From the NCBI GenBank assembly GCA_020073585.1, contig JAIQEV010000023.1, positions 1 to 58,235 of the forward strand: a DNA stretch of 58,235 nucleotides. The letters run 5' to 3'. The first letter of the stretch is position 1; each line of letters opens with the position of its first letter. The position numbers were made by a program, and so were the translations under genes. Shown here in pieces: positions 3,633-13,327 of this stretch. The notes under the pieces were generated by a model, which saw only the letters and a program-made list of their open reading frames with translations, was not told the DNA's origin and did no database searches. Source of the DNA: Terriglobia bacterium. GTDB taxonomy: Bacteria; Acidobacteriota; Terriglobia; Acidiferrales; UBA7541.

Positions 3633-4382
3633 TTAGGGGCGGTTGGGGCTTTCGAAAACTTCGTGGATGGCCCACCCGGTGGCCCAGGCGACGGGGATGA
3701 GAATGTAGAGTTTGTACTTGGCGCGGCTGCGCCCGGCGGCGCGCACCGGCAAGGGAGCCTGGTCGGCGGAAGGCAGGCCGGGAGCCGGATCGAGCACGGC
3801 GCGATACGTGGCGCCTTCCGGGATCACTTCGCTTTCGCCGTTGTAGCTGAGTTCCAGCGCGCCGCGGCGCACGACGACGTAAAACTCCTTGGGCCCCAGG
3901 ACGCTGACCTGCGCGACGGCCGGACGGCTGTCCACGGTGCGCAGCAGGGCGCCGTTGACAGCGATTTCGATTGCAGGCGTGGCCGCGGAGCGGTCAGTTG
4001 CAGGTGTGACCGCAGAGCGGTCAACTGCAGGTGTGACCGCAGAGCGGTCAACAGCAGGCGAGGCCGCAGGCGGCGCGGAGGAAACGCTCAGGGTGCCGCC
4101 AAGCAGAGTGGCCTGCAAGCCCTGTTCCGCGCGGCGCAGAGTGACCACGCTGTCCCCGCCGAGGTGAACCTGCGCGGCGCCGATGCGCAGACGCAAAGCG
4201 CCATCGGCATTGGTGCGGAACTGGTCGCCGTCGAAGACGGTGGCCCCGGCCGAGACTCCGCCGGAACCCAACTGGGCCCCCGTGGCCTGAAGGACCACAC
4301 CCATAGCGGCCGGGCGCGCCCTGAGGACCGGCGCACCCGCCAGCATGGCGGACAAGAGCAAGGACACGAGAGCCCTATTCAT
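3633..4382 (-). CDS. Secreted FecR-like domain protein with a C-terminal membrane helix
   Basis: A 249-aa protein with a signal peptide (residues 1-22, ending ALVSLLLSAMLAGAPVLRA) and a probable C-terminal membrane helix (about 226-242, LYILIPVAWATGWAIHEVF). The middle reads GDQFRTNADGALRLRIGAAQVHLGGDS, a FecR-type beta domain also seen in extracytoplasmic anchor proteins. Residues about 103-132 are three to four copies of a 9-aa unit, PAVDRSAVT, encoded by the 27-bp palindromic repeat. That insertion splits the domain: the second half resumes with EIAVNGALLRTVDSRPAVAQVSV. Role unknown; family members sense or scaffold at the envelope. It is divergent from the M20 peptidase gene, and both carry the repeat. 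Confidence 0.75.
   Translation of the reverse strand: MNRALVSLLLSAMLAGAPVLRARPAAMGVVLQATGAQLGSGGVSAGATVFDGDQFRTNADGALRLRIGAAQVHLGGDSVVTLRRAEQGLQATLLGGTLSVSSAPPAASPAVDRSAVTPAVDRSAVTPATDRSAATPAIEIAVNGALLRTVDSRPAVAQVSVLGPKEFYVVVRRGALELSYNGESEVIPEGATYRAVLDPAPGLPSADQAPLPVRAAGRSRAKYKLYILIPVAWATGWAIHEVFESPNRP
3973..4076. repeat. 27-bp tandem palindromic repeat array inside the FecR-like gene
   Basis: Cores GGCCGCGGAGCGGTC (3981), GACCGCAGAGCGGTC (4008) and GACCGCAGAGCGGTC (4035) are exactly 27 bp apart. A decayed fourth (GGCCGCAGGCGGC) starts at 4062. Each core is a 6-bp inverted repeat around 3 bases. Because 27 is a multiple of 3 the host frame is kept, giving a 9-aa protein repeat. Confidence 0.9.
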
Positions 4383-4671
4383 AACCTTTGTTGGGCTCCG
4401 ACGGGAAGCCCCCGCAGGAAAGAGTAGTCCGGGCCGGGAGGTTCGGAAGGCACTTCGTTAGCGCGATGTGCTCAATTTGTACCTTCTGTACCTGGAGACA
4501 GGGAGAGCTGCGGCGGGGGATTCCGGCGGCGGGAAGGAGTTTCCGGATGCGCCCGATTCGCCGCCTGGGGGTGAAAGGAATCCGCTAGAATCTCCGGGCA
4601 CGGCATTGCCGAAGGGATCACGCCGCGGGCGAAGCGGGAAGCGGAATTGCGAGCCGGCTCCGGGAGGAACG

Positions 4672-6279
4672 ATGAAACGCAGAACTTTGTTAAGCGTGAC
4701 CGCGAAGCGGTCGACTGTATTGGTGATCGCGAAGCGGTCAACATTGTTGCTGGCGGCTCTCTTGCCATTGCCCGCGCTGGGGCAGAAGGCGGTGGCGGTG
4801 GCGCCGGGGCAGGTGGCGCAGGAGGTGCGCGACTACCGCAAGAGCAACGAAGAGCGGATCGTGCGGGAGTTGCGGGAGTTTCTGGCGATCCCCAACACCG
4901 CCACGGACACGCCGAACATCCAGAAAAACGCGGCGCGGCTGATGGAAATGCTGGAGGCGCGGGGGATTGAGACGCATCCGCTGTCCATTGCGGGGCGCGG
5001 GCCGGTGATCTTCGGGAAGCTGACGACGCCGGAAGCGACGCGCACGGTGATCTTCTACGCGCACTACGACGGGCAGCCGGTGGATGCGGCGGCGTGGACG
5101 GACGGGAAGCCGTTCGAGCCGGCGCTGCGGACCAAGGCTATCGAGGCGGGCGGGAAGCGGATTCCCTTCCCGGAGGGCGCGGGGCCGGGAGCGGCGCACT
5201 ACAACGACGAGTGGCGGATCTATGCGCGGTCGGCGTCGGACGACAAGGCGCCGATCGTGGCGCTGCTGGCGGCGCTGGATGCGCTGCGGGCGAAGAGGAT
5301 CGCGCTGGGCGTGAACCTGAAGGTGGTGCTGGACGGCGAGGAGGAAGCGGGATCGCCGAACCTGGAGCGGACGCTGCAAGCGCATCGCAACCTGCTGGGG
5401 GGCGACGTGCTGCTGGTGGCCGACGGGCCGGTGGACGCGTCGGGGCTGCCGCTGATCGATTTCGGGAACCGCGGGGTGGTGGATGTGCAGGTGACGGTGT
5501 ACGGGCCGGCGCGGGCGCTGCACAGCGGGCACTACGGGAACTGGGCGCCGAATCCGGCGTTGCAGATGGCGCGGCTGCTGGCGTCCATGAAGGACGAGGA
5601 CGGGCGGGTGCGGGTGGAGGGCTTCTACGACGACGTGACGCCGCTGAGCGCGACGGAGAAGAAGGCCATCGAGGAGATGCCGGCGAACGACGCGGAGCTG
5701 ATGAAGGAACTGGAGTTCGCGGTGCCGGAGGGCGGCGGGAAGAAGCTCATGGAGCTGATCAGCGAGCCGTCGCTGAACATCCGCGGGCTGCGCAGCGCGT
5801 ATGTGGGGGCGGAATCGCAGAACGTGGTGCCGGAGAAGGCCGAGGCGTCGCTGGACCTGCGGCTGGTGAAGAATATCGAGCCGAAGGTTCAGTACGAGCG
5901 GCTGCTGGCGCACATCCGCAAGCAGGGGTACTACGTGACGGATCGCGAGCCGACGAAAGAGGAGCGGCTGAAGTATCCGCGGGTGGCAATGGTGACGAGC
6001 AGCGGGGGCTATGCGGCGACGCGCACGCCGATGGACACGGCGGTGGCGCGGAAGCTGACGGAGGTGGTGGAGGGCGCGGCGGGAAAAACGGTGAAGATGC
6101 CGACGTCGGGCGGGAGCGTACCGATGTACATCTTCGAGGAGCTGGGGCTGCCGGTGATCGGAGTGCCGATCGTGAACCACGACAACCGGCAGCACACGGC
6201 GGACGAGAATTTGCGGCTGGGGAATTTGTGGAGAGGGATGGAGATTTACGGGGCGGTGCTGGCGGGGCTGACGTGGTGA
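4672..6279 (+). CDS. Secreted M20-family metallopeptidase (dipeptidase-like)
   Basis: Zinc-dependent exopeptidase of the M20 family, 535 aa. Start at 4672 is chosen because GGGAGGAA lies just upstream and the protein then begins with a signal peptide (cleavage near ALG-QKA, residue 37). Metal and catalytic residues are visible: FYAHYDGQP (H131, D133), SASDDKAP (D190/D191) and LDGEEEAGS (E223-E225). The family lid domain follows at about 255-410. The signal peptide is odd: its basic part and much of its hydrophobic core are two copies of a 9-aa unit (VTAKRSTVL, VIAKRSTLL) encoded by the 27-bp palindromic repeat. The stop codon lies in a TGACTCGTGA tandem tract. Likely exported to the periplasm to cleave short peptides; substrate unknown. 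Confidence 0.88.
   Translation: MKRRTLLSVTAKRSTVLVIAKRSTLLLAALLPLPALGQKAVAVAPGQVAQEVRDYRKSNEERIVRELREFLAIPNTATDTPNIQKNAARLMEMLEARGIETHPLSIAGRGPVIFGKLTTPEATRTVIFYAHYDGQPVDAAAWTDGKPFEPALRTKAIEAGGKRIPFPEGAGPGAAHYNDEWRIYARSASDDKAPIVALLAALDALRAKRIALGVNLKVVLDGEEEAGSPNLERTLQAHRNLLGGDVLLVADGPVDASGLPLIDFGNRGVVDVQVTVYGPARALHSGHYGNWAPNPALQMARLLASMKDEDGRVRVEGFYDDVTPLSATEKKAIEEMPANDAELMKELEFAVPEGGGKKLMELISEPSLNIRGLRSAYVGAESQNVVPEKAEASLDLRLVKNIEPKVQYERLLAHIRKQGYYVTDREPTKEERLKYPRVAMVTSSGGYAATRTPMDTAVARKLTEVVEGAAGKTVKMPTSGGSVPMYIFEELGLPVIGVPIVNHDNRQHTADENLRLGNLWRGMEIYGAVLAGLTW
4695..4748. repeat. 27-bp palindromic repeat, two copies within a signal-peptide coding region
   Basis: Cores GACCGCGAAGCGGTC (4698-4712) and GATCGCGAAGCGGTC (4725-4739), spaced 27 bp. 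In the M20 frame they code for TAKRS and IAKRS followed by hydrophobic residues. Confidence 0.9.
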
Positions 6280-6349
6280 TTCGTGACTGGTGACTCGTGA
6301 TTCGTGACTCGTGATTCGTGACTCGTGACTGGTGACTCGTGACTGGTGG
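6275..6349. repeat. TGACTCGTGA/TGATTCGTGA stutter repeat
   Basis: About seven short units of the form TCGTGAYT or GGTGACT follow one another. The M20 stop codon TGA (6277-6279) is the first of these. Further degenerate TCAGT/ACAGTGAACTG repeats follow to about 6465. There is no gene between this tract and trpG. Confidence 0.75.
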
Positions 6350-6531
6350 AAGAACTCGCGTTGAGCGGGTGGCTGTGTTCCGGGCATCAGGCATCAGTAA
6401 TCAATTATCTGTTATCAGTCACTGACCACTGGGGGGAACGGTTGAACAGTGAACTGTTCTGCCGTTTTTTTTGTGCTGATGGACGGGCACGGCGATGGCG
6501 TGGCGCGGCGAAGAAGGGGTACGGCGGCAAG

Positions 6532-13263: not shown

Positions 13264-13280
13264 CGCACCCTCCTGCAGGC

Positions 13281-13327
13281 GTGACCGCTAAGCGGTCAAC
13301 TTCAAGTGTGACCGCTAAGCGGTCAAC
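13281..13327. repeat. 27-bp palindromic repeat, two intergenic copies
   Basis: Cores GACCGCTAAGCGGTC at 13283-13297 and 13310-13324 are identical and exactly 27 bp apart, joined by AACTTCAAGTGT. They lie between the hflX stop and the ribosome binding site of the 66-aa gene. Confidence 0.92.

Follow-up and report, generated by a model that had tools for sequence, protein, structure and literature searches.

The window analysed here (the whole stretch of 58,235 nt) corresponds to contig C76 in the 4.03-Mb genome designated G000; it was compared with the genome of a sister species, G028 (∼90% DNA identity to G000), and with a third genome of the genus, G016. At 4672..6279 on the forward strand it contains an ORF for an exported-type peptidase of the M20 family (535 aa), and a Pfam search of the product confirmed both Peptidase_M20 (PF01546, E = 1.7e-16) and M20_dimer (PF07687, E = 4e-12). 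A Shine-Dalgarno-like GGAGG (4663..4667, +) stands ahead of the ATG at 4672, and the product starts with MKRRTLLSVTAKRSTVLVIAKRSTLLLAALLPLPALGQK. The signal-peptide coding region, as now read, spans 4672..4782 (+; 37 residues), with a putative cleavage site ALG|QK and a hydrophobic core from residue 26 on. Residues 9-17 (VTAKRSTVL) and 18-26 (VIAKRSTLL) make up most of the n-region; as the preliminary description had noticed, and as the ORF and the repeat search confirm, they are coded by two repeat units. These units, 27 bp each, lie at 4689..4715 (+; palindromic core 4697-4713) and 4716..4742 (+; palindromic core 4724-4740), a register fixed by the insertion junction. Split around the insert, the protein start reads MKRRTLL-SVTAKRSTVLVIAKRST-LLLAALLPLPALGQK. 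Otherwise, the gene is that of an ordinary exported-type peptidase. At its other end, a 7/14-bp tandem array of GTGACTC type (∼10 copies of 7) occupies 6269-6348, at and just behind the stop codon, and positions 6266-6437 were covered by no match in blastn of the window against the sampled G028 stretches.

The repeat search of the window placed the pair in a seven-copy family of 27-nt units, with three copies at 3971-4051, two at 4688-4741 and two at 13273-13326. The three-unit array (3972..4052, +), read antisense, encodes VDRSAVTPA repeats in the ORF 3633-4382 (-); G028 lacks it, with a net length difference of 90 bp instead of 81. The two-unit array at 13274..13327 (+) is intergenic and common to G028. 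With up to three mismatches allowed, the core TGACCGCnnAGCGGTCA had 20 matches in the window on both strands, against 3.35 expected (100 shuffles, the largest value being 9). Exact matches numbered 94 forward and 95 reverse (189) in G000, where the pattern read backwards had none; because the core is palindromic, one place may match on both strands, so a few of the 189 are counted twice. G028 had 206 exact core matches and G016 had 87; counts in the remaining 33 genus genomes ran from 0 to 14 each. A 20-bp core matched 146 times in G000 and once in a draw of 395 further genomes of the phylum, which included no other genus member. Tandem Repeats Finder (score 30) did not list the pair at 4688-4741, which is modest as a two-copy repeat; the repeat pair is certain because the genome-wide family exists. 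Rfam at gathering thresholds had no match in the window, and no title or abstract opening among those searched describes this 27-bp family. Membership of the pair in a dispersed family bears out the earlier characterization of the DNA as mobile-looking.

Arrays were sampled around the matches listed (100 places per genome), yielding 112 in G000, 90 in G028 and 49 in G016, 251 in all; genes were called with a hexamer gene finder. Among the matches listed, the G000 set comprised 52 single units, 44 doubles, 12 triples and four arrays with 4 to 7 units, and the spacing of units in it was 27 bp in 74 of 86 cases. Units are arranged head to tail, and in a few arrays (e.g. L167) the loop of one unit reads the opposite way. 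The arrays avoid genes: only 52 of the 251 around the matches listed lie wholly inside called genes, with 83% of the sequence coding (binomial p about 3e-102). Where neighbouring units both fell wholly inside genes, they were 27 or 54 bp apart in 20/20 cases; elsewhere the spacing was 27 bp in 101/118 (both counts among the matches listed). Units in frame were found in the M20 gene and in other called genes. With DNA parameters, a single unit folds into a 7-bp hairpin with a 3-nt loop (z = -4.4). The profile built from 202 arrays of G000 and G028 consists of a TnTATGTG-like stretch, followed by TGACCGC..AGCGGTCA and then AC.

Likeness of units was 0.58 within arrays versus 0.45 between arrays (94 pairs; the largest of 2000 shuffles gave 0.50). 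Neighbouring units being more alike, local duplication also adds copies. We considered on these grounds that the pair in the M20 gene could be a local duplication within that gene with no tie to a mobile family; given the occurrence of the core at many places genome-wide, and of single units where the sister species has an empty site, this explanation is hardly credible. The same difference in likeness led us to reject tandem growth by self-insertion as the sole route to arrays.

The closest orthologue of the M20 gene is that of G028 (88% protein identity). It begins with MKRKIVLLLAVCLPLPALGQK, contains no repeat inside the gene and carries MKRKIVLLLAVCLPLPALGQ as its repeat-free N-terminal signal; the ALG-QK junction, the putative cleavage site, is the same in both proteins. 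When 4689-4742 is removed from the window gene, the first 31 bases from the ATG align with the G028 gene free of gaps (26/31 identical). The joined flanks of the insert likewise align without gaps to the empty site of G028, with 41/60 and 51/60 identical bases on the two sides, and without the 54 bp they have exactly the G028 length. Among 27 genus loci with a covered N-terminus, an array inside the coding sequence is found only in the window's own gene; arrays near the M20 start occur at two of the 27, this one and the G028 locus, where the array lies ∼200 bp upstream of the gene. The remaining genus orthologues with a covered N-terminus also have hydrophobic beginnings (judged by eye from putative starts). 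None of 79 named loci, some of which belong to the same genomes as the genus set, has the repeat in the M20 gene; the nearest named relatives by this gene are group-2 Acidobacteria and Acidiferrum-like metagenome genomes. Since the sister and the outgroups are repeat-free, insertion rather than loss is indicated, and the simplest reading of these sequences is that the 54 bp were gained in the G000 lineage, a loss in G028 being possible in principle.

The signal peptide with and without the repeat was judged by hydrophobicity count. The best 11-residue Kyte-Doolittle mean is 2.54 without the 54 bp versus 2.27 with the insert, and the charge ahead of the hydrophobic core rises from 3 to 7. The gene minus 54 bp encodes MKRRTLLLLAALLPLPALGQ, which keeps a short basic n-region and a hydrophobic core up to ALG-QK. 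The preliminary description had seen in the repeat the source of the positive charges, the export signal itself and a route to new signal peptides. The first idea holds in part, as the repeat brings four of the seven charges before the core and the other three are present without it. The other two are not supported by the comparison of orthologue N-termini: G028 has a complete-looking, equivalent signal peptide free of the repeat, and what the window gene encodes once the 54 bp are taken out is still signal-like. In substance, the preliminary description had itself named repeat-free orthologues of this kind as contrary to its view. That the repeat founded the signal peptide, a mobile element having turned into an export signal, would fit the coding of residues 9-26 by the units, with their share of the charge, and a similar case described for Yersinia (PMC2229807); we regard it as very improbable, given the G028 signal, the persistence of the signal in the shortened window gene and the lack of an array inside the gene at every other covered genus locus. 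Judged from the sequences compared, the M20 case is an add-on to an existing export signal, not the birth of one.

Coding status of the insert depends on the translation start. Several in-frame GTG and TTG codons follow the repeat, and N-terminal REPs are often, perhaps, non-coding, as a warning given in PMC3733652 states; translation could thus begin downstream (e.g. at TTG 4744 or 4747) and the repeat would be a non-coding 5' leader. Such a start is very improbable, because ATG 4672 has GGAGG at the right distance and both are kept in the repeat-free G028 gene, because the residues ahead of the insert match between the species (MKRR in the window, MKRK in G028) and because the insert keeps the frame. 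With the start conserved, we read the repeat in M20 as coding.

Sites with and without units were compared between the sister genomes. For 45 of the 112 G000 arrays a sampled G028 stretch was comparable; among the matches listed, 35 were shared and 10 flagged absent, and in the reverse direction 33 of 40 comparable G028 arrays were shared and 7 flagged absent, the share of common sites being biased upward in that the G028 stretches were chosen around that genome's own repeats. The M20 array is outside the 45, as its flanks failed the comparison criterion, and was compared separately. Of the 45 arrays, 15 showed no length difference, 12 differed by an exact non-zero multiple of 27 and 5 came within one base of such a multiple; in 13 the difference was of another size. 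Rearrangement seems a better description than a cleanly empty site for at least L130, L163 (two), L176:3001 and L238:3866 among the 10 arrays flagged absent in G028. Two of the 45 are the arrays of L147 (G000:C29:1-5700), near-identical to G028: the start of C29 is 99.7-100% identical to G028 (L222) beside both arrays, and L144 (G000:C26) aligns with that G028 place at about 86-92% identity. Going by these identities, the C29 end may not belong to the G000 bin, or may have been exchanged recently. A difference in unit number was seen at a gene end as well, where L250:1200 (G000) has seven units and L221:3237 (G028) one, exactly 162 bp apart in length.

Joined flanks were gap-free on both sides at six of 18 empty-site comparisons, M20 included, and not at the other 12. 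The net lengths at the six sites were 54 bp at L137, 27 bp at L251:3862, 27 bp at L201:11553, 81 bp at L215:11829, 27 bp at L224:14672 (the weakest of the six, with 39/60 on the left) and 54 bp at M20; the insert is therefore exactly one, two or three units with no target duplication. Among the 12 comparisons without gap-free flanks, L132:7664 has by eye a clean 27-bp insert once turned round. The five bases before the insert are the same in both alleles at L251 (TCCTT), L201 (TCCTC) and L224 (TCCTG), and also at L129 (CCCTC) and L141:189 (ACCTT), two sites with right sides that are not cleanly aligned. No fit to CCTN was seen at L215:11829 (ACAGT), L137 and M20; at the last, the species differ in these bases (ACTTT versus ATTGT), which makes a target motif unreadable there. 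The insert thus follows CCTN at 5/8 readable junctions. Among the matches listed, C(-12)..T(-10) precedes 118/251 first units versus a background of 5.7%, and CCT within -14..-9 precedes 76/251 versus 6.0%; the motif is not fixed.

The reading frames of arrays were tallied with one row in a sixth frame left out. In the KR-bearing frame (VTAKRS), 7 of 12 arrays of G000 and G028 precede a hydrophobic segment, six of them independent since L202 and L232 are orthologous; the 12 include L121, L176:4445, L234 and L192, which were added under a widened criterion and all have no such segment. The cases are M20, a DUF4097 protein (L122), a DUF3857 protein (L136), the orthologous pair L202/L232, an HlyD-type protein with a lipobox-like LAAMSGC by eye (L175) and an amino-acid permease in which the segment is a membrane helix, not a signal peptide (L149). 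At L136, L202 and L232 the start called by the gene finder falls within or after the repeat, and reading the units there as coding relies on a start further upstream, picked by eye. The pair L202:7149 (G028) and L232:3001 (G000), an exported-type protein with an N-terminal repeat, has two units in G028 versus one in G000. The prediction that this frame favours signal peptides was fixed before G016 was examined, and none of the four VTAKRS-frame arrays of that genome precedes a hydrophobic segment; one of them (L269) directly follows a signal-peptide-like core instead of preceding it. In the other frames, over the three genomes, arrays precede a hydrophobic segment in 1/16 (DREAVN), 9/38 (VDRFAVT) and 4/12 (LTASRS) cases. 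With 0/4 in G016, a preference of the VTAKRS frame for signal peptides is rejected as a general rule. N-termini, signal peptides included, tolerate repeat units. The predicted N-terminus of an M48 peptidase gene (L154:3001-3073) consists of three antisense-read units (MVHVDRSAVTPIVDRSAVTQVVDRFAVTH), and the true start of this gene may lie downstream of the repeat.

A Y1 transposase of the RAYT type was considered as the driver of the family. Three Y1 genes were read in G000 and G028 (L181:3098-3628, L209:11367-11903 and L228:5411-5941; type MPxxLKRYYGRGxLHFLTFSCYRRLPLL), all flanked by inverted repeats, in which they resemble the Acidobacteria TIRYT genes of PMC3733652. None has an array closer than about 1.4 kb: the first lies in a 4.6-kb locus free of arrays, with one weak core of three mismatches about 1 kb away, and the nearest arrays of the other two are about 1.4 and 6.8 kb off. 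A fourth Y1 match without a gene model (L204) has its nearest array about 1.3 kb away. Over 36 genomes the number of Y1 genes did not correlate with repeat number (Spearman -0.14, p 0.41). With neither correlation nor linkage this candidate is rejected, and no enzyme could be tied to the 27-bp family in the genus genomes compared.

We conclude that REP/RPE-like 27-bp units very probably lengthened an existing M20 signal peptide by in-frame insertion in the G000 lineage. A two-unit array, or one unit later duplicated, would have entered codon 6 of an existing M20 gene, landing where the short basic n-region of an existing Sec-type signal peptide gives way to its hydrophobic core. Exactly 54 bp (18 codons) were added, so the frame stayed open, and the stretch before the core would tolerate extra basic and small residues. 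In its present form the signal peptide would then be the earlier one, its n-region extended to about 24 residues, and we infer that the protein with the insert is probably still exported. The family may move via a hairpin DNA intermediate.

A wider reading, which we put forward tentatively and think rather unlikely as a whole, is that the nine-codon hairpin unit is moved single-stranded by some enzyme and inserts 3' of CCTN without duplication. The unit end TCAAC resembles the CCTN target, so the unit would insert after itself and form head-to-tail arrays; as each step equals nine codons, N-termini, signal peptides among them, would be repeatedly lengthened with the frame intact. The spread of REPs has been called poorly understood (PMC8266576). 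Unit-bearing and empty sites of sister genomes offer insertions resolved to the base, with unit length, target side and the absence of a duplication all readable. The M20 case shows that a tolerant part of an exported-type protein can accommodate units of this kind.

Several known systems invite comparison. A MITE insertion is flanked by a target-site duplication; unlike it, the 27-bp family has no target duplication at the six gap-free sites (6/18 comparisons). Single-strand transposition of the IS200/IS605 type places the insert 3' of a short, fixed target and makes no duplication. REPs of the GTAG superfamily are palindromes of 20-40 bp in high copy, mostly intergenic, sometimes coding and capable of forming hairpins (PMC3733652), and the 27-bp family is likewise a high-copy, mostly intergenic, hairpin-forming palindrome that is coding at times. 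In contrast to those REPs, it has no GTAG at the palindrome end, the stem on the other strand being preceded by GTTG; it is mostly arranged head to tail with a 27-bp period, and head-head dimers are given as the predominant form of GTAG REPs (PMC3733652); and no repeat-flanked RAYT gene was found for it in G000 and G028. Cleavage by TnpAREP is reported at CT dinucleotides that adjoin the REP hairpin (PMC8266576), and the CCTN before inserts recalls this cleavage, a lead and not a proof.

Palindromic units inside genes are also known from the RPE type of Rickettsia and other CGTC-tagged repeats, which are in-frame inserts in many unrelated proteins (PMC3733652); the description of CGTC repeats given there reports no association with a transposase. 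The 27-bp units found inside genes are similar, but the family differs from RPE/CGTC in having no CGTC tag, a 27-bp unit, another phylum as host and a mostly intergenic location. With neither tag present, it falls outside the GTAG and CGTC superfamilies as these are outlined in PMC3733652. PARCEL elements, palindromic coding repeats linked to membrane proteins, are a 25-residue protein repeat in tracts of variable number (PMC2996958), whereas our family is dispersed and mostly intergenic. Intragenic REPs are known, N-terminal ones included, and many of the latter may be non-coding with the real start downstream (PMC3733652). A signal peptide built from a repeat has a published precedent in Yersinia, where the mobile 168-bp repeat YPAL/RU-2 is described as part of a predicted signal peptide at locus YPO1552 (PMC2229807). 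Likened by description, the two cases differ in that the YPO1552 fusion was proposed as a new exported protein and the M20 case is an old signal lengthened. The 27-bp family works like REP or RPE, as a new REP-like variant.
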